Assembly (NCBI GenBank): GCA_900095095.1
Contig: FMBT01000100.1
Coordinates: 1-52,048, forward strand
Direction: 5' to 3'
Length of the DNA stretch: 52,048 nucleotides
Source: Fragilariopsis cylindrus CCMP1102
Taxonomy: Eukaryota > Bacillariophyta > Bacillariophyceae > Bacillariales > Bacillariaceae
Part shown: positions 23,049-50,898 of the stretch, one piece after another
How the letters are laid out: each line of letters begins with the position of its first letter
How positions within the stretch are numbered: position 1 is the first letter of the stretch
Position numbers and translations under genes: made by a program
Notes under the pieces: model-generated
Database searches by the model: none
What the model saw: the letters and a program-made list of their open reading frames with translations, nothing else
What the model was told of the DNA's origin: nothing

Positions 23049-23675
23049 ATGCTGCGTTTTGCCCTTGTATTTGTAATATGCAGTGTTTATTGCGTCAATT
23101 TTTCTCTTTCGTTTATGGTGGGAGGAGGACAACCGAGAATATTCCAAACAATTGTACCGTCAACGACTAGTCTTAATGCCAAATCGGGAAAGAAGAAGAA
23201 GAAACCTAAAGATACCACTGTCTGTAGGAATCGTCAAGCACGAAGGAATTACGAGATAGTTGATACTCTTGAAGCAGGAATTTCTCTATTAGGAACCGAA
23301 GTCAAGGCCAGTCGGGATGGGAAGATGAATCTCCAAGACGCATTTGTGAAAGTTTCGAAAAATGGTAGGTCGTGTACATTAATGAATTGTCATATTGGAA
23401 AACATGACATGTCGGGTGCTTATTTTCAACACGAAGAACGACGGCCAAGGATGTTGTTGCTACACAAGGAAGAGGCGCGGAAACTGTTAAAGAAGACAGA
23501 AACGACGGGTATGACGGTCGTTCCTCTTGTGGCATATTTCAACGACGATAATAAGATGAAACTTCAAATCGGACTTGCTAGGGGTAAAAACTTACGCGAT
23601 AAACGGCAAGATCTTAAAGAGCGAGATATGAAAAGAGAGAATAGTCGCATAATAAAGAATTTTCGAATGAACTAA
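23049..23675 (+). CDS. smpB: Plastid-targeted SmpB (tmRNA-binding protein)
   Basis: The 208-residue protein has a bacterial-type SmpB core of about 150 residues: VCRNRQARRNYEIVDTLEAG (about 58-77), ISLLGTEVKASRDGKMNLQD, CHIGKHDMSGAYFQHEERRP and LLLHKEEARKLLKK, then VVPLVAYFN and LARGKNLRDKR. SmpB binds tmRNA and loads it on stalled 70S ribosomes for trans-translation. The N-terminal extension has a hydrophobic signal-like segment (MLRFALVFVICSVYCVNFSL) followed by SFMVGG, matching a diatom signal plus plastid transit peptide with Phe at the cleavage position. Diatom plastid genomes are known to encode tmRNA, so a nuclear-encoded plastid partner makes sense. Single exon; the first ATG of the frame is used. 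Confidence 0.95.
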   Translation: MLRFALVFVICSVYCVNFSLSFMVGGGQPRIFQTIVPSTTSLNAKSGKKKKKPKDTTVCRNRQARRNYEIVDTLEAGISLLGTEVKASRDGKMNLQDAFVKVSKNGRSCTLMNCHIGKHDMSGAYFQHEERRPRMLLLHKEEARKLLKKTETTGMTVVPLVAYFNDDNKMKLQIGLARGKNLRDKRQDLKERDMKRENSRIIKNFRMN

Positions 23676-23916: not shown

Positions 23917-26900
23917 TTAATTCATTCGTCCGATGCAGTTGGGTGCACCACAAGAACATTTCAAACTTCCATCTTCCACTGGAAACTTGTAATCATACGT
24001 AATCTCTTCTCCAGCCTTGATGTCTGTATTGGAAAATACCATGATTTTGGGTTCTTGTTTTCCTTGATCTGTGTCGACAGAAATAATCTTGGCGTATGCA
24101 TTTGCCTGACAACTGTGATTCATGAATCGCGCCATACATCCAATTTTAGTGGCGTCTACGATTCGCAGCAAATCTAGGCGAAACATATAGCACGATCCTT
24201 CTCCGGAAATCTCGTATGCCTTTTCTCGGGCGTCTGCGACGCTCTTCCGAATAACTTCGCCCATATATTCAACTATCATGGAATCCTTAGGAAGGTCCAT
24301 CTTCGTAAACAGACCCCATCCATGAATATGTGAACGTTTTGGAGTCAAACGCTGTTCGATCGGTACAGCTTTCATTTCACGATACATACGCTGGATTCTG
24401 TTTCTGTCGGCCTTGATCTTTTCCGAATCCGCCTTTTTACTCACAGCACCAACATCTGTGTTGTCCCCATTCTCTACATTTCGAACCAAGGCTCTAGTGA
24501 TACGATCACTGCCACCGCTCTTAGTAACCGCACTCATACCTTCCGCACGAGCACACCCACTGGCATTCTCCAGTTGTTTCTCGGCTGCCAAGGCCGCACG
24601 CTGACGTTGAAGGTCCATAATGACATCAACTGAAGGCTGTGTATAACAAAACAGATACTGTGGAGAACTTTCCGTCAATTTCGTTACAACTGCCTCTGTG
24701 CCGGGAAGTCCCTCGATAAGCTTACGGATATGATTCGTACCAAAACCAAAGAATTGAGGACCACTCAAACCGAAGAATTTTTTAAAACTGTGACGCTCAG
24801 TTGGTAACTTAGAATAAAGGTTTCCATGGGAAAATTCAGAATCATTCGTATCTTTGACGCGCTCCATTAGAATGTTGTAGGCTTGAGTAGCTGATGACGC
24901 TTTGATCTTACCGAGTGGGTTATCACCCGGTGTGATGCAAAATAAAGGCTTTCCCCTTGCTGATTTCTCGATCTTCAATACGTACACCGTGCGTTGCTTT
25001 GGTTTCATTGTTGACCAATAAATGCGTGTTGCTGTGTAGCCCAATGGTATTATATAGTCTTTGGTATGAAAGCCGTCACGATTCTGTTCAATTTCTCCCA
25101 AAGCGTGTACGAGAATGGCTCCGTATCTTGGACAGAAAGAGGTATCATTACCATCTGCTTCTTTTTCTGACATAGATTTGCTTTTTTCTTGGTGAACGAT
25201 GAGAGTTTCCATCGATTCACTACTTGGGTTCTTAATAATATCTTCTGCACAATCCTTGTGGATAGCACAGAGCATTTGCTTTGACGATGTAAATGCTGCG
25301 CCGCAAGCAAAGGCACATGGGAAATGGAAGTTGACAGAACAATTTTGTTTGACACAGCCAACCGTTGCTCCGGGACGTCCGCATCCAAAACAACGAAGCT
25401 GAGCCCCGCGAGATCTTGCTTTTTCTGTGGCGTGCACAAGGCCACCACTAGGAGCTTCCCAGGTTTCGGAGCTCCAAAGAGCGCAGGCAGAATGGACCCA
25501 TAATCCATCTACCATTGGTAAGAGGCGACCAAGGCGGGCAATGATTGGTTTGGTTCGATCCGCTGTTTGTTCTGGAACGTCGTCAGATAGGCCAGCGTCG
25601 TTGTCACCGCAGATATGACAGAGACAGCACTCACGTGGATCACTCCATTTATGACCCATATCTTTATCATCCAATACGTGGTTCCAGCCGCATAATGGTT
25701 GAGCAAGCTTATACTCGATTGCCGTTTGATTCCCAACGGTGCTTGCTAATCCCATTCCTGGTGGTGGTTTCCTTATCTCCTTGGGCGCGGCAACGGCAAA
25801 TACAGCGGATTGGACGTATGGTTTCAACCTAGGTTCATGTATCTTAAGCCATTCATCCTTACTAATAAGATTTCGGTTTCTCTCGCATCTGATAGGGTCA
25901 AAAGCTAGATCGACCGATCCAGATGCATGGGGAGCTACAAGCAACTTCGTCACCCTGTCGTATCCCTTCACATTTTTCTTTGTCTTCAGTCCCATCATGC
26001 TACAGGCAACTTTAAGCCAGCTAGCTGCAAGTTTTGAAATCATCACACAATTTTCAATTCGTCTTGCCGAAAATCCAACGGTATCGAGATTTAATTTTTT
26101 AGCTATGTGAAGGAAGCGAGTTGCCCGTTGACCCATCCATTTCGGCAAATCTTCATTCTCGTGCCAGAAGCGATCCATCAGATATCTTGGGTCTCCAAAT
26201 TTCTGCCGAGCAAGGTTCAGAAAACGGACACCCTCCAAAACAACTTTTCGGTACTCATCTCGCCATAAATTACGAGTTTTCCAATCGATTTGCTCCATAA
26301 GCTTTTCTTCCAATTCAGAATTCGAAAAAGGGTTGCTGCCGGAATCAACCAATATGCCTTGGGAAACAACCATCGAGACAAAGTCAGCCATGTGATCTCG
26401 AGTCACTTTTCCGTCCCCCTTGTTGATCCCCTGCTTCTTCCTACAAGTAGGGCACTGATATCTTGAGCTTTCAACATCATCATTTCTCTCAGTGCCCATT
26501 TTCTTGATATGAGCATCTGCTTTGGAATCACATCGTGTATGTGTTTTTGTGTCGCAATCAACGCATCTAGCTAGATCTACATCATCGTCCCTCCAATTGC
26601 CCAAGCAGACAGAGCATTTTTGTGCATTCATCTGATTTTCCAGTTCAGCTAACCCGTCACAACCCCCACATCTGTAACAGATATGTGGATCGCGTGACCA
26701 ATGCTTGAGGCTCGCCCCTTTTGGCTCGAGGGTATTATGACACTTGGTGCAATCAACGCATTGTCCACATATCCAAATTCCAGGAGGAGCTGTTAAGAGC
26801 GGTGGATCTAACAAATCAAGAGAAAAACCACGATCGCACATTTCACAAAAGAGCATTTTTGTTTCGTCTTGAGGGGCATCTCCGGATATCTCGCAAATTT

Positions 26901-29900
26901 TGCAATTTGGACATCTCCAGGCAGCAACCGATGATGCATCCATACTATGAATTGGGGCATTGACACAAAAGGAATGGAAGGCTTCTCCACAATCTACACA
27001 AAAGATCATGGTATCAGATGCACCGCTACTACCGCATGTAAAGCAACATTCTAACCAGGCACAGTAATATGCGTCTTTGGGTTTGTGTTTGACTACATGG
27101 CAGGGTAAACATGATGGCTGATCTGGTGATTTCTCCCGAAGTGCAGGTAGACTGATAGTGACAACTTTAGATCCAGCGACCAGATCTTTTTTTTCGGTTG
27201 TTTTATCCTCTTGGATACGGTCTTCTTCCGCCTGCTTAGCCTTTCTAGCCTTCTCAAAATTCTCTAGAATATCGGCTTCGTACTTGCTGGGCGGGGCAGC
27301 TTTTCCCATGGTCATAAAGACATTATTGAGGCAAGCATCGTAATAGCGCTTTGCTTCGAGCCAAAAAGCAGTGTGGTACCGATTGAAAGTCAAAGCGTTG
27401 AGAACCATCAGTTCAAAAAGCTCTCTAACCCAAGCATAATTCTTGTATTCGTCTCGTTCAACTCGAATCAGCATGGTTTGCAGATCCATAGGATTTTTAA
27501 TGACATCCAAGTAATTAGGTGCAACCTTATCTGTGACGGGTTCAGCAAATAAGAAGAGCTTGTCTTCTTGCGTGAGCCTGTTGATGATTTCTAAGCTTCG
27601 ATTTCTGCAACAGATACGACATAAAAATTCGGTATTGTAAATTGGATGGTCGCCATTAGAGGTTAAGTCGTATTCTTTTTCGTTCACTCCAGCGCAACCA
27701 GCGTGGACCCATAACGAGCAACTGTCACATGTTAGCATATCCACTTCAGTGAATCCCCATTTCGATGTCTCTGGATGGTACCACATTGGATTGACAGTAG
27801 CTCCTTCGGGCAATGGATCTTCGGATCGGATGGTTGCCGGTGCCGTAAAGGAATGGAAGTCGGCTGATGACGTAGGATCATCCATTTCCGACTTACGCTT
27901 GCGTCCTCTCTTTTTTGGTCTATTCTCCTGTTGCCACCGAATCTGTTTCTGAGCATGTTGAAAGTGTTCGTCGTCCCATGAATGCGCGCAGTTTGGGCAG
28001 AATTGTTCCTCATTGTAATAATGGGTGCACATCGAACATAACATCAGATCTTTTCCATCTTGGAATGACAAAGTTTTGGGAATAACACGACGATGACTCC
28101 CGAAACTTATGTCCTTCTGGTAACATCCAGCACAGACTTGGCACTTTGAACAAACAAACGATTTATCTTCTCCGCCGTATACAATCTTGTGGTAGGCATC
28201 CTTGGTGAGAGGAGGATCACAACAACCAAGATGATATGAACTATCGCAAACGCTACAGCTAATTTTAGTTTCGTTCTTTTTCCAATAGTCTGAACATCCA
28301 GAGCAGCACTTAACTCGCAATGCTTCTAGATGCGCATCGGTATCTTCTTCGGGATCCGAAACTTTTGGACCAATGTATTTGAACCCCTTCACAAAGGGCA
28401 AAATATCAAAGTTCGACAATTTGTTCTTGTTGGGTTTTTCTAATATCTGTAATTTATGTTCCTTCGATTGCAAGTTTATCCATGACGAATCGTATTTTTT
28501 TTTCGTCTTATCAGACATCTCGTATACGATTAACCATTTGTTCAGAGATTCACTATACTGTTTGACTCGACCAGCAACTGTATCCCCGTACGGATAATTG
28601 ACGTCGTCCCTCCATATCTGAATTCGACTTCCCACAAGATGTTGACCAACTTTTGTATTTGACATTTCCAATGCCTTCTGCGCGTAAAACCGTGCAGCAT
28701 TGTTGCGGCAACTTTGAATCTCCCTTTCTTCTTCTATGGCCATATCTATTGCGGCAGAATTTCGTTTCTTTTTATTCTTTTGAATGACTGAATCAATGTG
28801 ACCATTTTCAAATGGTCGTAAACTTTCTGGATTATCACGAAGGGATGCCACCTCATTGGTTCCAAAAAATTCTACATTCGTACAACCATCTCGGGCAGGA
28901 TGGACATCTGATTCCATAACCATAGCCGGCCACCAGGCATATCCCTTCACGTGAGCCCATACTAATCGGGTTGAGATCTGCACTCCCTCTTCTAACCGTA
29001 AATGTAACCAGGCACAATTTTCTTTATCGACCTTGTCCAAAGACCTTGGTTTGTCATCAAACTGAATCTTGTGTTTGTGTGTACAGGGGTCGTAACGGAC
29101 GATTCGTCCGATCTTCCAATCTCCGTGTTTATCGTCGGATATACGAATCCGCCATCCTATCTTTTGATAAGTTGGACTATCCGGATCAAAATGTACAGTT
29201 GATAGGTGGGACTTCCCATATTCAAGAGTACTTTCGGGATCAGTTGGAGGTTCTATTTCTATTTCTATATCTTCGTTGTCCGTGGCATTGTCTTCATCAT
29301 CATCATCTTCTTCATCTCCTTCTCCATCATTAATGGTTTCTATGCTGTCGGTACGTGCTCGTTTGGCGGATGATGACATTTTTGGCATTTTAATTTTTTT
29401 GTCCGACGAATCATTATTAAGCTTCTTATTTTTTGACGCAATAATATTTTTCGGTTTCTTCTTATATTTCTTCTTTGGTGGTTCAACAACCTGTTTCTTC
29501 TTTTTCGGTTTCACCTCTACGACTATCTCCTCCTCCTCGTCGTCTTCAGATTCAGATTCGTCGTCGTCATCCTCGTCGTCGTCAGTATCGTCGTCGTCGT
29601 CGTCGGTATCATGTGGCATTTCGTTTCCGGGATCCTTTGTCAAATCTAATGCAATTTTAGGTTTTCGTCCCGGTTTCCGCCCGGGTTTTTTCCGATTCTT
29701 GAGTTTATTACTTTTACTCATCATTTTTGATGATGGTGGTCGACCACGTTTACGTTTAGGTTGAGACGTCGGCAGGACTGTATCGGCTGGTAACATACCC
29801 AGTTCTACAGATATTGCCAGAGCTTTGGGAATGCTATCACAAGACCGATTATTTGGGGCGATCCATTTTCGACGTTTTCGTTTCTATGTTATTATTTTAT

Positions 29901-38728: not shown

Positions 38729-40811
38729 TCATATGGGGTCGTCATTGGAGAAAAAATCGGCGTCGAATGGAAAATCCACGAAGGAAAATCCAGTGGACGA
38801 TGTGATATTATCTTCGTTTGTTATTTCTTCGTCCCCAATAATGCCAGGAATCATTGCCAAGTCGACAAGCGAATCGTCTCTATGAAGGGATCCGGGAACA
38901 TACCCTACCTCTACTTCATGATTCGGTATTGCCAGTGCCGAATTTGCTGCTGCAGGGTTTCCTTCGATTTCATTGGTGCTGTCAGTTGCACCCTGTAAAG
39001 ATTCGTTAAAATTTTGAGTAAGAGCATTAAGACTTGCCTGGACCGGTGTAGGTGCGACCGGTCGTGTTGACACCTGTGCATTATTACTACTACTAGCAGC
39101 AACAGCAGCTGCTGCAGCAAGAACATTCGACGATGAGTTAGTATTCTTCAATATGTTATTTTGATGGAGTTGATGTGGAACAAACCCGTGGCGGACACCT
39201 TTCCCAACTGCCACACGCGCAATTGCTTTTTGTGATTGTTGCAAAGTATTATTGATGCTATTGGTGTTAACATTGTTGTTGTTCGATGTCGTGATGGCAT
39301 TGTCACTCGAAGAACGATATAGGATCCCAGCCAATACCGGATTTACACCATCATTGGTGGCGCCGATAGTATTACTGCATCTACCAATATTCCGACCGGT
39401 GGCAGGCTTCCCCTGTTTTCCGCTTCGATCTCTTTTCTTCCCACCCTTCTTGGCTGTGGGTTCGTTCCCTTGTTTTCTCTGTGAAAAATTATTTTAAAGT
39501 CGATACGGTATTGCGGTAGAAAGATATTATATTAGAATAGAAGAGTAAGAGAGTCGCTCAATCAAATAGAAGCACAGGTAAAAGCATTGGCTGGTAGTGT
39601 ACCATATGACTGATACGATACGAAAGGACATGAATACGATATGATGATAGATACGCGAATACATAGAACATAATACACAGTAGTACCTACCTTGATAAGT
39701 AGTAGACTTCCAAGTTCATCAGTAGTAGCATCATTAACGTATGAGCATGGTGCCATCTTCCCCTTCCCAGCTAACTTGCGAAAGCCAAAGTAATTCAACT
39801 GTCTCTGGAACGAAGCGAACTTGGAATGTCTAAAATATCTATTGAGAACAAGCGTTTCTAACTTATGCGGGCTGTGTACTTCTATCTTGGCTATAGTAGA
39901 AAAAGGAGAGTGAGGGAGTGAGTGGTTAGGTGATAGTGATGATGATTGGTCAGAAAAGAATACTCAAGCAAGCCAAAGGTTTTGAGAAACATGTTCATTC
40001 TAGCAAACCAAAACGATCTAGGACAGAATTGAAAAATAAAAACAGGAAGAGTAACGGCAGGACAATCAACGGTTCAAAACGCCTAAGCTACCCTGACTTT
40101 ATCTGGCGTGACTACCTTTGACACCTATCTGTTTTTATTTCACTTTTGACACTTACAGTTCGACCATTCAATAATATCCCGATTATTGTCAGTTAGCATC
40201 TTCGTGAGTTGGTACAAAAATTCTGGTACTGTATTAGCATTGGCAGTGTTACTATTCGTTACAGCCGATGCCATTACGACACCACCGGTGGAGGGTGGTA
40301 TTATTTGCATTGAACCTGTTGCTATTATTCCAGACGATTGTACTGGTATGACTGCCAATGATGCAATGGATGATGTAACAGCCAATGGATGTTGTTGCAA
40401 TTCCTGACTATGATGTTGTTGATGCTGCTGCTGTTGTTGTTGTTGCTGTTGTTGCTCCATGATATCACCTCCCGCGCTAGCTGCTGTTGTTGATGTTGTG
40501 ACTAATGTGTTACTGCTAGTTCTGGATTCCATCAAAGAAGGCAATAATGGTGATGGTACTATAGATTGCTGATTATTTATATTTGTATATGCATGTGTAT
40601 TCGGAAAATTAAAATCAAGACCTTGGCCTATATCATTCAGATCTTCGTAACCGGTAGTTTCGAGTGAGGATAACGATGATACCGTTCGTGGTCCACGAAC
40701 TATTGTTGTTGATGATGATGTACTTTCCTGTTGTTGCTGCTGCTGCTGCTGCTGCTGTTGTCCCTGACTCTGTCTCACATCTACATCATTATTATTAGGG
40801 GATACCATCAT
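38729..40811 (-). CDS. Heat shock factor-type transcription factor, three exons
   Basis: Exons are 40811-40157, 39890-39691 and 39478-38729. Introns have GTAAGT and GTAGGT donors with CTATAG and TTTCACAG acceptors; the total is 534 residues. Both introns lie within the region of the DNA-binding domain. Splicing yields [23 protein letters not shown]^[36 protein letters not shown] and [19 protein letters not shown]^RKQ, a complete HSF domain at about 195-285. Long poly-Gln tracts (CAG/CAA runs near 40424-40456 and 40729-40758) precede the domain. The C-terminal part is Asn/Ala/Ser rich with [20 protein letters not shown], the LxDLAMIP motif shared with the facing HSF, and ends in an acidic, aromatic [15 protein letters not shown] that could be an activation motif. 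Target genes are unknown. Confidence 0.92.
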
Positions 40812-42059
40812 GTTCCTATTTGATTACACTACAAGTCTACAACTTAGCTGAATAGTTTTCTTATTGTCAATGATTAAAGTTACGTTACGAATGATGACAA
40901 TTAAAATATATGCACCAATGAAAAGGAAGTGTTCAGCCTAAGAGTCACAGTGATCTAATACAATTCTAGTACACGAACCAAAGATTTGTTTCTGCGTCAA
41001 TATGCCGATCTTTATAGTGCTATGGTCTGCTAAGGAGGGACCGGGCATTGGTTATATCGACTCAGTCGTCTTAAACTAGACACACAACCTCCCGTGTTAA
41101 TAACTACTAACAATTCATTTATATTTCTTATTTTTTGTGATGGGTGTCTGAATTCTCGTTACTCACTCAGCAACAACACGACACAAGCAAGGACACGACA
41201 GTATAATGAGTAGTATGTGTGAGTCAGTGAGTCTATGAACGCGCAATAAAGTAGGCTAAAAATAGAAAAAAAGCGAATTATTCAGCTAGTCGGCGGTATG
41301 ATGATGTATAACTTCATGACGTGTCCAGTGCGTGCAATCAATGCGCATGGGTGGTGTTCTTCTTTAGTCACAAGTTTTGGAAGTTCTCGCCTGCACTCTA
41401 CGCTAGATAGCTAGTGTAAGACGTTATATTTAAAATTTTGATGTTGTACTGTACTGCATTCCATTATCTAGCTACGTTTCTTGATTTCATCAGTGTTGCT
41501 AGTAGTAGTAGTAGTAGTATAGTATTTGTATCGCAATTATATCTGTGTGTACATTTTCTTTTGTTTTGCTACTATAGGTGACTCCAACTCCTGCATATTT
41601 CCCCTTTCATCTGTCCAAAATGAGTGTCCAGCCAGCAGCCATCATAACAATAAACACCATGTGCTACTATACACAACCATTTGTTGTTGCTATTTTTCAC
41701 ATGCTATCAATGGAGCCTTCATCAACTTAACTACATTTGTAGTGCATCTTTTGTTGCCCTGTTTGGGGGTAGTTGATCCAGAAACGGGTAATTCTGCACT
41801 CTGCCACCAGGTATTAACATTTTTGGATAAGGAGAAATTGAACTGAAAAATCTCACTCATCCTACTTTTAACATGGGATTGCCAACGCATTGCAACCAAA
41901 AATTCAGAACTCAGGGGGTTAACAACATGTACAGTACTGCACCAAGCTATACAATTCTTTAATTCATACTTCTGTCTAAACAAACAAAACAAAAAGCACA
42001 TTGGGGAACAAGCTAGAAGCTCAGCTACCAAATATATCATCTGATCTCCTGTTACTTTC

Positions 42060-42125
42060 CTTCTAGTCCAGTGGTGAAAATACCACCGAGTTGTCATGAA
42101 GGTCCTGGGTTGGATCTTATGTAGA
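42060..42125 (+). other. Degenerate tRNA-like relic (possible SINE head)
   Basis: TAGTCCAGTGG (42064-42074) fits the A-box consensus TRGYNNARNNG exactly. GGTTGGATCTT (about 42109-42119) is a damaged B box at roughly tRNA spacing. The intervening GAGTTGTCATGAAGG resembles an anticodon arm with GTC. A closed acceptor stem was not found, so it is not called a functional tRNA. Confidence 0.25.
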
Positions 42126-42895
42126 GTCGAAGCTCAATTTATTTAGTTAGTAGACGCATTCATCATCTCTATTTGGATCTTCAAAGATTTTCATTTTTTT
42201 AGGTCTATTCATCTACTAATTAACCGTGTTTTTAACACGCAAAAATACCTACAAAACCCTTATAACCGAATCCTGATAATAATACATCACTTAATTGATA
42301 ATAAATTGAGGAATTTTTGCGTGCATGCAATATTTTACTTGTTGCTGGTTTTATCATTATAAATTGTTGTTCTTTTCTTTCCAACTGAAAACCGGATTCT
42401 TTGTTGGAATGATGTTCTGAATGGTTGTGCTGTTGTGTGGCATGTTGTTCTCTTTGGTCAGGTCATTGCATTGCATCATCGCATCTTCACAGCACATCAC
42501 CTCAATGAAATGATGATATATGTTACTCCTATAAAATTATGTTTGGCATAAAATAACTATGGTACTCCTAGATCTGTTATAATTACTAAGCTTTGGGATT
42601 TTCCACCAGTGGTAGTATTAATATTATATCCCTGGTAGGATGCAGGATGGTATGTCGTCATCTCATTGAATCCTCCCCCTTTTAATCTCCATCCTACCTA
42701 TAGTTGACGCAATGCAAGTGCTGCGTTTTTAGGGTGTATTGAATGAACCCTTTTCTAAACCAAAGTAGCCCTGTGAAAAGGAATGTTGATGTAACTACAG
42801 TGTAGCTCAAAAGACCTCTCTATGAGAGTTGCGAATACATCCCCGCATTTCTGAAGATCTGTGCCATTGTACTGATTTAGCTTTATTCTAGTAAA

Positions 42896-42966
42896 ACAGC
42901 TCAGATTTTTCAAGCTTTTATGAGCCTCGAGCCTGGTACTCTCACCTTAAAGTTCGATTCCCTTGT
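42896..42966 (+). other. Second degenerate tRNA-like relic
   Basis: AGTTCGATTCCC at about 42951-42962 matches the B-box consensus GGTTCGANTCC at all but the first base. CAGCTCAG at about 42898 resembles the TAGCTCAG A-box region. The distance is a little long and stems do not close, so this is at most a relic or a chance match. Confidence 0.2.
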
Positions 42967-43200
42967 ATTTGCTCGGATTATTCTGATTTATTACGACTTC
43001 GCCGACGTTCGTTACCGACGTACGATTTAATGTTACTTCCTCTATCTTATTGACATCGACTCAAGAAATAAAACAGAAAAAGCCAAAGCGCTTATTGATC
43101 ATACAATATCGCAGACTACTTAAGATTGTTGGGTAACCAAATTATAGCTCAGATTCTATCTCGACAGGCTACGTCTTGATCCTTTTCAAATTGTATCCGA

Positions 43201-46200
43201 ATGCGAAAAGAGATTAGAAAACTCTACCGTATCTTTCTAGTAGTAGTCGCGATCTCACTTTCCCAACGAGTCTCTAGTTTTACGCTGATAAAGAAAAAAA
43301 CAAGCTCTAGTTTTACGCTGAAAATGGGATTATTAAAAGTGGGAGTACCCAAAAGTTGGGATGATTCCAAAAAGGATCTTGAATACATCCGCAAAGCTGG
43401 TGTTCGTCAATTTATTTCGACGTATAATCGAGTGAAAGATCTTAAAGGTGATGAACTTTTATGGGGAGACGAAGTTGAATACGGAATCTTTCATATAGAT
43501 CCAGAAACCAAAAAAGTTCGCCTGTCCCTTCGAGCCAAAGAGGTGAGTATTCAACAGAGATGTACAAAACCCCGAGAAAGAGAATGAATATATGAATCAA
43601 ATCCATCATCATGCAAATTGTTTTGGTACCCAAATAGTTCAAATACTGACATCATATTCTTTCCCATTTCATTTTCATTCGGTATGTTAGGTCATGGATG
43701 AATTAAATCGGAAGGAGGCAGTGCATTCTCAAATTTCCGAGGGTTGTAATTGGGTACCTGAGTATGGTGCCTGGATGGTGGAGGCAACACCCAGTCGTCC
43801 ATACACTGGATTCTCAACCGATCTGCTTCGTGTCGAACGAAATATGAGACTTCGACGAAAACGGATCTTGACAGTCCTCAATGAAAACGAAATCGCTCCA
43901 ACTGTATCTGTTTTCCCATTGCTTGGCTGCTTGGGGGACGATGGATCGGTTCCACCCACTGCAGTGGGCGGACCTATCACCGAAAGTGAATACATAGGTG
44001 ATGGAATCATAAATCCACACCCTCGCTTCGGAACTCTGACTGCAAATATTCGTCAACGTAGAGGATCGAAAGTTAACATTAAGATTCCTCTATTCCGTGA
44101 CACCGACACACAAGAATTTAAAGAACTTGATATGCCCAAGTCGGGTGTCGATGGATGTTGTGGAAGCGATTCTCAGCATGTAAGAGCGATGACTGATATT
44201 TGTTCCATTTACAATACACATCCTGAAATGGATCTGTAATGATAGACAATTCATTGTAATCGAACTAACATGCATTCTTTTATTTTTCATTATTCAGCTG
44301 TGGCGCTATGGAAAAGGCGACGCCTGTGACGAAGAATTTGGCAAGGACTTTGTCACTGTCGGTTGTTCGGCTACGTATAGAGACGAAGCAAACGATGACT
44401 CGACTGGAATGGCGACAATGGAAAAATGGCTCATTGATGTACAGTGCGTTGGATGTAAGGGCTTGTTTTATCGCAGCGCTCCCAACGTTATCGTACCAGA
44501 TGCAGACTGGCCAAGAAATGGCGACGTTGTTATGGGTAACGAAATCTGTAATAATCCCGGTAAGTTGAGATAACTAGAATATCCGTTTCACCACACAAGT
44601 ATTTACAATATATGTATATATATATATATATATTATATATCATTATTTCGTCTTATTTTCTTGTTGCTATTTTTGTTGTATAATATTTTTCATGCAAAAG
44701 GTTGGATTCGACTCCAAAATGGTTACTACCTCCCTATGCATAGCGATGATGGGAAGGTAGAATTTCTTCATAAAGTGTCAAAACGGGCTCAGACACAGAA
44801 CACAGAGATGAAAAGGATCGGTTCAAATACTCCTCTATTCAGGATGGCAGAGGAAGACCAGGAAAATGTTGCTACGTTGCTTGGAGGGACAGTGGCAGTT
44901 GCTGATGCTTCTGTGAATGGAAATTCAAGCAGTGACGAGAAAGACAATAACTCTGGCGACATGTTGAGAGCAGCTGTTCACGTGGATGCAATGGCGTTTG
45001 GTATGGGTTGCTGCTGTCTACAAATTACATTCCAAGCCAAAGATGTAGATGAGAGCCGTTTCATTTTTGATCAGCTTGCCGTGATGGCTCCTATGTACGT
45101 CTTTACAATATTTGTCTTTGTCTGTGTATTTAATGGATGACTTTGTCGTACTTTTTAGTGACATTTTGAATCGTGCTTCCCCGCAACTTTTCTCAATAAA
45201 TTCCGTTTCGTTCTTCGTCATTCAGTATGATGGCACTTACAGCTTCTACTCCTATATTGAAGGGTCGTCTATTAGACACGGATGCACGATGGGGTATAAT
45301 TAGCGAAAGTGTGGATGGTAGAACTTTATCGGAGCGAGGACGCGCCGATCCGAATGCTCCACATGATTACTACAATGCGAATGGTCAGCGACAAATCTAC
45401 AAGAGTCGCTATGATTCTATCAGTACCTATATCTACCAAGGAAGTATGACTGGAGGTCAGGACGCGAAAGACCTATCGAATCGTGTACTGAACATTTACA
45501 ATGATATTCCCCTCGCAATCGATGAATCGTGTTACCAAGACCTCAGAGAAGCTGGAATAGACCCAGCACTAGCACAGCATGTTGCACACTTATTTATCAG
45601 GGATCCATTAGTTATCTTCAATGGTGCTGTCGATGAAGTAGATGACGAGACCCAAACTGAACACTTTGAAAGTATTCAAAGTACTAACTGGCAAACAGTG
45701 AGATGGAAACCTCCTCCACCACGTGATAGTCCCAATGCCCCTCACATTGGCTGGCGTACAGAATTCCGAAGTATGGAAATTCAGCTTACAGATTTCGAGA
45801 ATGCGGCGTTTTCTGTCTTCACCGTATTATTGCAGAGAACGATATTAACCTTTGACCTAAATTTGTACATACCTATCAGCAAAGTCGATGCCAACATGCA
45901 AAGAGCGCACAGTAGGAACTCTGCAGCTAAAGGGAAATTCTTCTTTCGACGTCACCTGGCGCCATTAGAAGAAGGTGACGATGGATATGGCGTGAAATAT
46001 GTTTCTATGTTTTCTCAAGGTGTGAAAGGGGCCTACAATGAAACATCAGAAAACTTCGAAGCAGAAGATGCCGATGGCGTCAGCAACTATCGAAAAAGTG
46101 CTCCCACTGCCAGAGGTAGTGCGGAAGAAAATGCATTTGAAGAGATGACAATGGAAGAGATAATGTGCGGTAAAGATGATCATTACCCTGGACTCATCCC

Positions 46201-46772
46201 ACTAGTCAGAGCTTACCTTGACCATATAAGTGCTGACTCCACAAGCATGGCTCGTCTTCACACATACCTTGATTTCGTTGAAAAGCGTTCAACAGGTGAA
46301 CTCATTACTACGGCGACTTGGGTCAGAAACTTTGTACGAAACCATCCTGACTACAAGCAAGATTCGCATGTTACTGAAAAAATTGCGTAAGTATTATCCC
46401 TTTCCACTCGTGTTCTCTCACTGCAGTGAGATTATGAATGATTGCCAAATCTGCTTTTCGATATTTGTTTTCTTACGTCGTTCCCTTTTCTTCTTTATTA
46501 GTCACGATTTGTTAGTTGCTAGCAAAGAAATTGGCGAAGGAAAACTTCATGCTCCAGAATTGCTTGGAGATGTGCAGATCCAAGAGATATCAACTGACGG
46601 TGCATACTCTACGAAATTAGACTCCAGAAGAGTAACAAACCAGCGCATTGTTGAACTTTTACAACGATATACCAAGCGACAAAGTCCTTTCGACACAGAA
46701 TTCTCATCCGAACTTGCACCGGATTCCAACAACGCTGAACCTAGTCCTGCAGAGGTCGGTATAGAATTTTGA
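43201..46772 (+). CDS. GCLC: Glutamate-cysteine ligase with plastid-type presequence and inserted domain, six exons
   Basis: Exons 43201-43542, 43691-44179, 44298-44559, 44701-45094, 45226-46386 and 46502-46772 are all GT-AG and in phase, giving 972 residues versus about 640 in animals. The enzyme joins glutamate and cysteine using ATP, the first step of glutathione synthesis. Eukaryotic GCLC motifs are present: MGLLKVGVPKSWDDSKK, LLWGDEVEYGIFHID, WVPEYGAWMVEATPSRPY and HPRFGTLTANIRQRRG. Others are VDAMAFGMGCCCLQITFQ, DARWGIISESVDGRT, AQHVAHLFIRDPL, STNWQTVRWKPPPP and GWRTEFRSMEIQLTDFEN. MRKEIRKLYRIFLVVVAISL..VSSFTL looks like a signal plus plastid transit peptide; Met43 begins the conserved core and could give a cytosolic form. 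Residues about 270-455, encoded by the end of exon 2, exon 3 and exon 4, are absent from known GCLs and include an SH3b-like piece (GWIRLQNGYYLP). Confidence 0.94.
43272..43321 (+). repeat. 17-bp direct repeat in the GCL presequence
   Basis: The 17-bp unit at 43272-43288 recurs exactly at 43305-43321, in the same reading frame apart from neighbouring residues. It encodes SSFTL twice, so the presumed plastid cleavage motif with Phe is duplicated. Confidence 0.9.
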
Positions 46773-47259
46773 TTAATTCTTTTATGATAATCCTGCTGAA
46801 GTCGGTATGTAAAATGTAGAATGCCGTTTGGCGTAAAAAATAACCTTGATTAATTCTTTTATGATAAGTGTTACATTTATTTCATGTGAATATAGAAATA
46901 CATTTATTTCATATGAATATAGAAAGTAGGGCTATTTTTTGAAGCCGTAGATATCCACGAGCTCTGCATGATATGATGATCCGTAATAGTAATATTCTGT
47001 AGAAGAAAAAGAGTGGATGCATCTAGTTGTTATGCTCACGAAAAACAATTAGATCACATCATTGAGGCATTCATTTATACAGTATATGTTATTATCATAG
47101 CTTGACTCTTCCCAAAATAAGAATGGATTTCATAAAAACTAATAGCAAAGATTACTGAAAAGGGAAAACGCTTATACACTTTTAATTGGTATAGTCTATG
47201 TTTTAAGAAGTAACTATAGTTGGATCGTTTTCTTCAAATACCTACTACCAAATCATTTA
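46773..47259. other. Intergenic region between convergent genes
   Basis: Spacer between the stops of the GCL and nucleotide-sugar transporter genes. It contains short direct repeats (TTGATTAATTCTTTTATGATA at 46771 and 46850, and TTACATTTATTTCAT-type units at 46873-46915) and no gene. Confidence 0.55.
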
Positions 47260-48597
47260 TCATTTTCGAGGTGCCGATTCTGGAAGAATTGGTTTCCGTC
47301 TTCTCTTCCTTTCAGGTTGAGCATACAAGGCCGTTGACATAACCACCAAGGACGCTCCAGCGATAAAGGCAAAACTAGCGTGAAAATCAAAAAATATTGC
47401 TGACAACACACAACTCACAACAATCGAAAATGATGTTGCAAAGACTTTCAAAACATTGTCAGCATACTTGACTACTACAGCCACAATAAGTCCACCAACG
47501 GCTTGTACCGTAACGACGGTCCAAACGAGGGGGGTGTATCCTCCCAGAAACCCCTGTCTCGATACCGCTGCTCCGTCCTTGGCATAGATAGTGATGAATG
47601 CAATTATAACACTCGGGATTCCCATTTGAACATTTCGTAACCACAACGATGTTGTAGCCCCTTTAAGGATCTTCTCAAAGTAAACCCCTGAAAATCCTGA
47701 AGTACATGCAGCACACAAAACTGCAATCAAACCAATAAATTGGCTGTGCTTTTCAGTTTCTGATTTAGAACTGTCACGCGATCCCGAAATTTGTACAATA
47801 GATACACCAACAGTTAATAGAACTAAAGCTGCCCATTTTTTGGGAGAAAATTTTCGCTAATCATACACAACATTTTAAATTTAAAGTGAAAGGTTTGTTG
47901 TGAGTAAGAGAGAGAGAAGAGATATTGAAGGTATAATTTTTTGTTCACTGATTTTGGTTCCTAACATTGACTGGAATAAATGAAAAAGAAGAACAAAACA
48001 AGAACTCACCTGTAGTAAGATCATACTAAACACAGCAGTCGTTAAGATTTTGAGTTGATAGCACACTTGATATGTTGCTGCATCCAAATTTGTCAGAGCA
48101 AAGTACAAAAGATTATTTTGTACTGTATATAAAAAAGATGGAACAGTAAGTTTCATCATTTCTATTGGAGACTGCATGACATGTTCATTAAGTTCAGATA
48201 ACAGTGATTTGTCCGATTGATAAGTGATTACACAGCAACAAATTCCGAGTTTCATTACCTCCATAATGAATACTGCAGTAGACGCTAAATAAAGTTCAGC
48301 ACCCTCCGTTTGATTTGTTCTTGTTATCCGCATCAATAATACCAAACCGACCATTTGTGCAACCAACAATAACAATGCACCATATTTGATTAAGATATTT
48401 TGAGATGCAGCATCGTCTCTTTTCTTGCCCCGCCTCCTTCTAGTTGTACTCCCAGGTTTACGTCCTTCTGCTCTACTCGTGCGTTTCTTTGCTCCATCCG
48501 CCATGTCGCCCGATTTGCTGCCCGGAATCATTTGTTCTTCTACATTATCCCCCCCAGAAGGGAGTTCTACAGAGTAATCTTGCTCGTCGCTTCCCAT
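47260..48597 (-). CDS. Nucleotide-sugar transporter, SLC35A-like, two exons
   Basis: Exons 48597-48010 and 47856-47260 (donor GTGAGT, acceptor GATTAG) join in phase as ILLQ^RKFSPKKWAAL, giving 394 residues. Family members exchange cytosolic nucleotide sugars for luminal nucleoside monophosphate in Golgi or ER membranes. The SLC35A style shows in TVPSFLYTVQNNLLYFALTN, LDAATYQVCYQLKILTTAVF, TSGFSGVYFEKILKG, LWLRNVQMGIPSV, QAVGGLIVAVVVKYADNVLK and a conserved FATSFSIVVSCVLS. About ten hydrophobic segments are visible. A cytosolic N-terminal tail of about 70 residues is acidic then strongly basic (TTRRRRGKKR), and the C-terminus is basic (ERKRRRKPI). The sugar carried (UDP-galactose, UDP-GlcNAc or CMP-sialic-acid type) cannot be told from the sequence. 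Confidence 0.93.
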
Positions 48598-48888
48598 TCT
48601 CTCTTTCTCTTTTGTATTTCTTTAGTGATAACAAGTATGAAAGCAGTAACTAGCTTTCACTTCATACTACTGTACAGTATGGCAATTAATAATTTATTGA
48701 ATGTGAATAAATGACCGAGAACAATGGTTTAATTAAGTTACGTAGTAAAATTTTAAATTTCAAAACATTTTTATATTTGTCCGTCCGGCCGTCGCTCGTT
48801 AAAAACAATTTTCTTTTTTCCTTTTATTTTAGAAATTAAATTAAAACAAGAAAACTTTCATAAACAAAATTTGAAAATAATACTGCAA
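48598..48888. promoter_or_regulatory. Divergent upstream region of the transporter and PUS3 genes
   Basis: About 290 bases of AT-rich sequence separate the two starts. It contains a small GC patch (GTCCGGCCGTCGC near 48783-48795). No specific site can be assigned. Confidence 0.35.
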
Positions 48889-50898
48889 ATGAAAACGATA
48901 TCTGCCTTGTTCTACTCCATTGTAGCAACTACAGCAGCTACAGTACAAGTAACGTTCATTTTACGACAGTCGTTACAGTTTCAAGTTCTCTTATTGTATA
49001 TAGATGATTGTACGACCATGACATTACTTCCAAAGAATAGTAATACTTCCCAGAAGAAGAAAGGAAACTTCCATCCATTGCTTGAAGAACTAAATATCGC
49101 AGCTAAACCTGTAGAGCATTCTTCAACATGTGATTCTTCTGAAGATGCATCATCATCTAGTAGTTTGAGTTCTATCTCTCCTTCTGACTTATTGAGTTAC
49201 CTACTTGAAACAAATCGACTTACAGAGAAAACTCTCAGGGTCGCGGTGCAAGCAATCCACAAGATAGAGCAACAATCTTTGAAAGATAATAGTGATAGTA
49301 ATAATAATAATCAACCGCACGCCATCGATAAGATTGGGAACGCAGATCCTTCTACTTCTATCCCTCCTACACCTGCACCTGCACCTATTGCTACTACTAA
49401 TACTACTACCACTACGCAAAACACAACTGGTGAACGTTATCGGCACATAGCATTAAGATTTCATTATGACGGTGCTTTATTTAGTGGTCTCGCTCAAAAT
49501 ATCGGTCAAGAAAAAGACAATTCTGTGGAACGTGAACTTTTTGACGCACTCCTCAAAACTCGATTAGTAGTTTCTAGATCGGAATGTGGTTATTCACGTT
49601 GTGGTAGGACAGATCGTGGAGTTAGTGCTGCGAGTCAAGTTGTAGCCTTCAATATCAAGAGTGCATTTCCAGTAAATGCATCCTGGACGGAAGATGGTAC
49701 TTCACTTTTAGAAGCGAAGGATTTGCCAAAGAATGAGGATGAATCACGAAAAGTATGGAATCTCCCCCGATCAAGGAATAAAAAGTCAAATACGACAACG
49801 TCGACGATGAATAGGTTGGAAAAAGATATGAAAGAATATCCATATTCAAGAATTCTCAACAGTATTTTGCCACCGTCCATTCGTATTCTTGGTTGGACAC
49901 CAGTCACAGAGGAATTTTCAGCTCGTTTTTCATCAGGCGCACGAACGTATCGTTATTTCTTTTGCAAACGTCAAATGAATATGGATTTAATCCGAGATGG
50001 ACTTCGTAATTTGGTGGGAAAACACGATTTTCGGAATTTATGTAAAATGGATGTAGAAAAGGTTTATAATTTTGAACGAGTCATACATTCTGCCGAGCTA
50101 ATACAACTCTCGACAACCAAGACTGGAGATGGAGAAGAAAAAGATTCCAATCGTCATCAAGATGTGTACTATCTTCAAATCATTGGACAGGCATTTTTGT
50201 GGCATCAGATCCGTTATATTGCAGAGGTCATCTTCATGGTTGGCAGGGGATACGAACCTCCCTCTATCATTTCAGAACTGTTAGACGTGAAGAAATATCC
50301 TGGAAAGCCGAGTTATTGTCTTGCAGACGAGAAACCGTTGGTTCTACATAACTGTAGTTATCCTAATCTGCAATTTGGATATTCTGTTCAAAATATGTGG
50401 AAAGTATCCTGTGAGCTTGAAAAAGAATGGGAAGAACTAACCCTTGCAGCTGCTCGTATTCGTAATACCATCGATAGTTTTAGTCAAATATCTGTATCCA
50501 AGGAAGAATTGATCGCATTTTCTACTGGTAAATTGACTAAGCACAAAGAGAAGCTCCTTCGCAAGGGATTGAAAGATAATAGCAACATCAACCATCGTGG
50601 GGACCAGGACCAAGGAGATTCATTGGCATCCTCTACAATTATTCCTTGGGAGGATAGTCTCTCTTGGCTAAAAGAAAGAGATCTCTTTCCATGTGCAGAT
50701 GGCCTAACCAGTTCAGTCCATATACCGTTGATGACACGTTCAATGGGGCCCTCGTACGAAGAAAAGGTGGAATCTTTGAAAAAGTCTGAAAAACGTCGAC
50801 TAAGGTTTGAAACAAACGTTACTAAAAGGAGTAAGACGGCAGAGGAAGATCAAGAATTTTATGACCACAAGATCAAGCAGGGTGGATCTGGAATATAA
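48889..50898 (+). CDS. PUS3: tRNA pseudouridine synthase PUS3/DEG1-like
   Basis: From the ATG at 48889 the protein has 669 residues; Met44 (49018) is an alternative start lacking the hydrophobic leader. PUS3/DEG1 makes pseudouridine at tRNA positions 38/39 (known). The TruA-type fold shows in RYRHIALRFHYDGALFSGLA, VVSRSECGYSRCGRTDRGVS (catalytic Asp in GRTDRG), FSARFSSGARTYRYFFCKRQ, LVGKHDFRNLCKMDVEKV and QAFLWHQIRYIAEVIFMVG. YSRCGRTDRGVSA and NLCKMD are typical of the PUS3 branch rather than bacterial TruA. A poorly conserved N-terminal region (about 180 residues, with Asn and Pro/Thr tracts) and a lysine-rich tail are present. The leader MKTISALFYSIVATTAATVQ could be an organelle signal, but mitochondrial, cytosolic and nuclear roles all remain possible. 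Single exon. Confidence 0.93.
   Translation: MKTISALFYSIVATTAATVQVTFILRQSLQFQVLLLYIDDCTTMTLLPKNSNTSQKKKGNFHPLLEELNIAAKPVEHSSTCDSSEDASSSSSLSSISPSDLLSYLLETNRLTEKTLRVAVQAIHKIEQQSLKDNSDSNNNNQPHAIDKIGNADPSTSIPPTPAPAPIATTNTTTTTQNTTGERYRHIALRFHYDGALFSGLAQNIGQEKDNSVERELFDALLKTRLVVSRSECGYSRCGRTDRGVSAASQVVAFNIKSAFPVNASWTEDGTSLLEAKDLPKNEDESRKVWNLPRSRNKKSNTTTSTMNRLEKDMKEYPYSRILNSILPPSIRILGWTPVTEEFSARFSSGARTYRYFFCKRQMNMDLIRDGLRNLVGKHDFRNLCKMDVEKVYNFERVIHSAELIQLSTTKTGDGEEKDSNRHQDVYYLQIIGQAFLWHQIRYIAEVIFMVGRGYEPPSIISELLDVKKYPGKPSYCLADEKPLVLHNCSYPNLQFGYSVQNMWKVSCELEKEWEELTLAAARIRNTIDSFSQISVSKEELIAFSTGKLTKHKEKLLRKGLKDNSNINHRGDQDQGDSLASSTIIPWEDSLSWLKERDLFPCADGLTSSVHIPLMTRSMGPSYEEKVESLKKSEKRRLRFETNVTKRSKTAEEDQEFYDHKIKQGGSGI

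Follow-up and report, generated by a model that had tools for sequence, protein, structure and literature searches.

Glutamate-cysteine ligase (GCL) is considered to catalyze the step that limits the rate of glutathione synthesis (PMC6272303). Plant GCL (GSH1) carries a redox switch, the Cys186-Cys406 disulfide, is activated by oxidation and is confined to the plastid in higher plants (PMC9426629). The corresponding enzyme of Plasmodium falciparum, gamma-GCS, is located in the parasite cytoplasm (PMC6272303). Among diatoms, GCL model 13064 of Thalassiosira pseudonana has 636 residues, 231 of which precede the catalytic domain, and cleavage is predicted to follow residue 36 (NRV-KDL); the model is incomplete and has no start codon, and for both GCL and glutathione synthetase of this species, prediction suggested the cytosol (PMC4523565). 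Import into the diatom plastid involves an ASA-FAP motif, of which F is crucial (PMC4523565).

The window analyzed here, that is, the whole stretch of 52,048 nucleotides, is one entire contig (C51) of the Fragilariopsis cylindrus genome, which was searched as 67.9 Mb in 818 contigs. It carries a GCL gene on the forward strand (43201-46772), the spliced model of which consists of six exons (43201-43542, 43691-44179, 44298-44559, 44701-45094, 45226-46386, and 46502-46772) and encodes 972 residues without internal stop. Its introns are all of the GT-AG type and 115-148 nt long. The parts of the gene are as follows:

43201..43323, + strand: putative bipartite plastid presequence (residues 1-41) with a basic n-region, the core IFLVVVAISL, and the motif VSS^F
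43324..43542, + strand: conserved part of exon 1, from M42 (MGLLKVG, aligned to yeast M1; phmmer against 3ig5; codon score 0.26 bits)
43691..44179, + strand: exon 2, conserved GCL through KIPLFRDTDTQEFK (residue 258), then the 19 first insert residues (spliced model, phmmer)
44123..44179, + strand: first piece of the insert, residues 259-277, with C270 and C271 (spliced model)
44298..44559, + strand: entire exon 3, all of it insert, residue 278 to the first base of 365, with C287, C300, C327, C330, and C361
44418..44777, + strand: segment read as SH3b-like, residues 318-390, with intron 44560-44700 inside (homology putative)
44701..44969, + strand: last piece of the insert, in exon 4 to residue 454, the GWIRLQNGYYLP segment followed by a Ser/Asn/Asp/Glu-rich stretch
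44970..45094, + strand: conserved part of exon 4, AAVHVDAMAFGMGCCCLQ... (phmmer; C468 and C470 aligned with yeast C264 and C266)
45226..46386, + strand: exon 5, bulk of the PF03074 catalytic part (PF03074 E 1.1e-122)
46502..46772, + strand: exon 6, C-terminus and stop (spliced model)

The encoded protein matched PF03074 over residues 457-893 with 505.9 bits (curated cut-off, 25), and nothing else in Pfam matched the full protein at E<=1. Searching PDB sequences with it at E<=0.001 returned only yeast Gsh1, as 3ig5 and three further entries of this protein, and the alignment fell into three blocks. The yeast enzyme belongs to the same family, starts likewise with MGLL, and is 42% identical over the aligned blocks as typed; in the two-row yeast-diatom alignment of these blocks, the columns of yeast E50, E52, E96, E103, Q268, R313, E470, and R472, which we take to be catalytic or binding residues, are invariant. 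The gene is thus a GCL of the animal/fungal type (PF03074), with the activity predicted. Its family differs from that of plant GSH1 (PF04107), to which the genome had no match at E<=0.001. The window GCL is the sole GCL found in this genome, where it occurs in two near-identical contig copies.

The diatom protein differs from yeast Gsh1 in that residues 1-41 have no counterpart there and in the length of an internal site, where phmmer left 198 residues unaligned; yeast has only 24 there (chain 228-251), so that the diatom protein is longer by 174 residues net. Delimited by the conserved blocks KIPLFRDTDTQEFK, which ends at residue 258, and AAVHVDAM, which starts at 455, the insert comprises residues 259-454 (196 residues) and extends over the end of exon 2, the whole of exon 3, and the ∼90 first codons of exon 4. 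An earlier note had described an extra stretch of about 185 residues here, running across these three exons with clean phases; the stretch was confirmed, the length proved slightly low, and the spliced model supports the exon course. The span of 20-40 residues that the note had given for this site in animals and fungi holds for yeast, the sole species compared. As the introns inside the insert are in phases 0 and 1, exon 3 is no symmetric shuffled exon.

Comparison within the diatoms is possible via the sequence NRVKDL, which both GCLs contain: counted from M42, its V is residue 37 here, only one residue off the T. pseudonana position, so that the two numberings are comparable. If the catalytic domain of the published model begins where PF03074 does, which is residue 457 in the present protein, then 414 residues precede it here, counted from M42 (931 residues), compared with 231 in T. 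pseudonana. This difference of 183 residues approximates the size of the insert, which makes it most likely that the T. pseudonana model is without it; the gene predictor may, however, have dropped exons. If the model is taken as it stands, the insert is dispensable for a diatom GCL as such. It is probably lineage-specific within the diatoms and would then be restricted to some of them. No report of such a GCL insert was found in the open-licence literature, as judged by titles and the beginnings of abstracts. The lack of a start codon in the T. pseudonana model, in turn, would fit a true start further upstream.

The N-terminus of the present protein reads MRKEIRKLYRIFLVVVAISLSQRVSS-FTLIKKK..., which is signal-peptide-like and ends in VSS, followed by F at +1 of the putative cleavage site, in the manner of diatom plastid import, whereas M42 is the counterpart of the yeast Gsh1 start. 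A home-made presequence test, which was set up after the sequence had been seen, scored basic residues, a hydrophobic core, and a cleavage motif with F. The window has 446 ATG frames with 41 or more residues, nested ATGs being counted apart, and four of them passed the strict form of the test (two basic residues); core hydrophobicity was 3.3 for GCL and 2.2 for the three others. Eight of the 446 frames passed a looser form (one basic residue); GCL, the gene for SmpB, and a frame above a pseudouridine synthase reached at least 3.0, the remaining five at most 2.3. The codon score of the presequence was neutral (-0.03). Regarding the start contexts, position -3 is C for M1 but A for M42, and M42 is also followed by G at +4; leaky initiation and a dual location of the enzyme would be possible with these contexts.

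Glutathione synthetase (PF03917, C75:141824-143379) has the same build, that is, MTLRLLLPFLAIIFSQTTT-FALSS with the putative cleavage motif TTT^FALSS and a second Met later on. Like the SmpB gene, it failed the strict test because it has one basic residue instead of two, and passed the looser one. The combined features suggest that GCL is imported into the plastid by its presequence; possibly, it is also made from M42 as a cytosolic form. A plastid or dual location is likewise putative for glutathione synthetase. Against this reading stand the neutral codon score of the GCL presequence, the design of the test after inspection of the sequence, and the cytosol suggested for both T. pseudonana enzymes. 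The finding of a plastid-type presequence together with a second Met on both glutathione enzymes is new, and it renders plastid or dual glutathione synthesis in a diatom directly testable.

Beside these features, the end of the GCL presequence contains SSFTL twice (residues 25-29 and 36-40, 11 apart), which corresponds to a short DNA repeat at window 43273-43320. The SmpB gene (window 23049-23672; PF01668, 163.9 bits) has a signal-peptide-like start with an SLS^F motif and probably encodes a plastid-imported trans-translation factor. A further ATG frame, at window 18456, has a signal-peptide-like start with SSS^F and is situated 314 bases above the pseudouridine synthase frame from 18770; the two may be separated by an intron and together encode an RNA-modifying enzyme that is imported into the plastid.

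The earlier note had also pointed to several cysteines in the insert, and indeed 7 of the 14 cysteines of the protein are located there (270, 271, 287, 300, 327, 330, and 361), although it makes up only 196 of the 972 residues. Two of them form a CVGC motif (residues 327-330). Only thirteen residues lie between the end of the insert and C468 which, like C470, is aligned with a yeast cysteine (C264 and C266, respectively), while C469 is extra in the diatom enzyme. By this alignment, the insert adjoins the conserved Cys cluster of the GCL core on its N-terminal side.

Taken together, these observations are compatible with the following mechanism. An animal/fungal-type GCL would be read from a start that provides it with a plastid presequence, and maybe also from M42, which would yield a cytosolic form. 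The Cys-rich insertion of ∼196 residues, presumably lying on the protein surface, would act in cis as a regulator of the enzyme, most likely through a thiol/disulfide change at CVGC and the five other cysteines, and glutathione synthesis would then follow the redox state of the compartment. This reading of the sequence, a GCL with a plastid presequence and the insert as its thiol regulator in cis, is put forward tentatively, as a possibility to which we assign clearly less than an even chance. Because plant GCL is plastid-confined and activated by oxidation, the selective reason for a switch in the diatom enzyme would be the same. That an animal-type GCL and glutathione synthetase both moved to the plastid, and that the Cys-rich insert is an independently acquired redox sensor domain and a convergent, unrelated counterpart of the plant thiol switch, is a more far-reaching idea and appears doubtful at present. 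With its Cys-rich insert next to a conserved Cys cluster, the enzyme offers a specific site at which a non-plant GCL might be under redox control.

The alternative that competes best, and which we consider not far below an even chance, is that a permissive loop took up a lineage-specific insertion which is tolerated or weakly structural and has no regulatory role, as may hold for other protist GCLs. It draws on the isolation of the insert: searched alone against domain libraries, as the earlier note had proposed, it yielded no match in Pfam or NCBIfam at E<=10, and none among PDB sequences at E<=10, in searches where the filters of HMMER discard most weak matches. Among phage families (Phrog), the best E values were only 0.14 and 0.22, which were taken as chance, and in the own genome only the two GCL copies were recovered among the best first-look candidates scored. 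Scans of viral contigs returned no relative of GCL or the insert (queried with the full protein, the insert, three yeast-diatom alignments, and a DNA pattern), nor did scans of a collection of genome contigs return a GCL relative (queried with two yeast-diatom alignments); these are weak negatives in that only two peptide patterns per alignment were used and that the scans may omit records of this or a very near genome. The insert is, by these comparisons, not shown to belong to any known family.

A tolerated insertion is also in line with the T. pseudonana model seemingly being without the insert, and with the low-complexity look, by eye, of the last ∼50 insert residues. In addition, there is a precedent from another protist. 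Large insertions in the GCL of P. falciparum were reportedly described by Luersen in 1999, a work considered here by its title alone, and the HA-tagged protein is given as 130 kDa. On the other hand, codon use in the insert equals that in the core, half of the cysteines are concentrated in a fifth of the protein, and the middle of the insert shows Gly-Trp and aromatic patterning that has, again by eye, the look of a folded module. These features speak against a neutral loop.

According to a second alternative, the insert contains an SH3b-like interaction module, which would dock GCL to a partner, for example glutathione synthetase, cysteine synthase, or a membrane. It originates from the earlier note, where the succession RSAPN, GDVVMG, and GWIRLQNGYYLP had been read as SH3b-like, and a pattern of the SH3b type is visible to the eye in this part of the insert. 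Proteins with SH3b-like repeats are encoded elsewhere in the genome, and in an alignment of 25 columns with one such repeat, only 3 of 1,000 shuffles matched or beat the score of the insert segment. This result did not extend to other comparisons: in a second pair, 342 of 1,000 shuffles were as good or better, and with an SH3_3 consensus, 55 of 1,000. Against a profile of four own-genome repeats, 59 of 1,000 shuffles were equal or better (877 scored). In hhalign, the probability was 0.7%, over 8 columns. The lack of Pfam and NCBIfam matches also counts against such a module. Single-sequence AlphaFold2 models of the insert had a few strands but carried no confidence (mean pLDDT of 31.7 and 36.7). 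The SH3b-like nature of the segment is, consequently, not established, and a docking module appears unlikely.

The repeat proteins themselves, in which the repeats are divergent, are encoded on contigs C206/C678, C155, and C648. Their designation as SH3b-like is the reading of the analyst; the best match of the repeats to PF08239 had 19.8 bits, which is under the cut-off of 27. The protein on C155 has apparent C2H2 fingers at its end.

Whether the insert is coding at all was judged from codon usage. Of the 18 other frames in the window that reach 200 residues, 13 served for training and five were omitted by the analyst's choice. In the predicted frame, exon 3 had log-odds of 0.15 bits per codon and the exon 4 portion of the insert 0.18, compared with 0.26, 0.16, 0.16, and 0.19 for exons 1, 2, 5, and 6, respectively, while all five GCL introns scored negative in each of the three forward frames. 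GC content of exon 3 was 0.485, that of the introns 0.22-0.37. At their own composition, the chance of an open frame was ∼0.006 for exon 3 and ∼0.003 for the exon 4 portion of the insert. Stops are, however, also absent from a second forward frame of exon 3 (score -0.03) and from a reverse frame (-0.11), so that openness is weak evidence and the frame-specific codon score is decisive. By this signal, the insert is coded and no retained intron, an artefact that the earlier note had named as a refutation of its claim. That the insert is an intron removed from most transcripts, or that its exons are skipped in them, to which the additional stop-free frames of exon 3 might lend some credit, is very improbable in view of the frame-specific codon signal, the jump in GC, the canonical splice sites, the normal intron length, and the fact that the conserved exons downstream would be read out of frame if exon 3 (262 nt) alone were skipped.

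The second copy of the gene resides on contig C139. Over 9.5 kb, the GCL region of the window (40367-49869) is 99.58% identical to C139:217500-227000, and of the 57 differing columns listed by the aligner, one falls into a GCL exon, where it is synonymous (GCG to GCA). The two copies were taken as haplotypes (haplotig) or as an assembly duplicate. With this synonymous change as the sole exon difference, dN/dS calculation from the C139 copy was dropped, and selection on the insert cysteines is not judgeable from the two copies.

In the genome, the silicon transporter family PF03842 gave 27 exon-level matches, which, like the diatom-type presequences, are in keeping with a diatom. The reverse strand of the window encodes, at 23917-29796, a single-frame protein of 1959 residues with PWWP, PHD, bromodomain, FYRN/FYRC, and SET domains, which is, by these domains, a trithorax-like histone methyltransferase.
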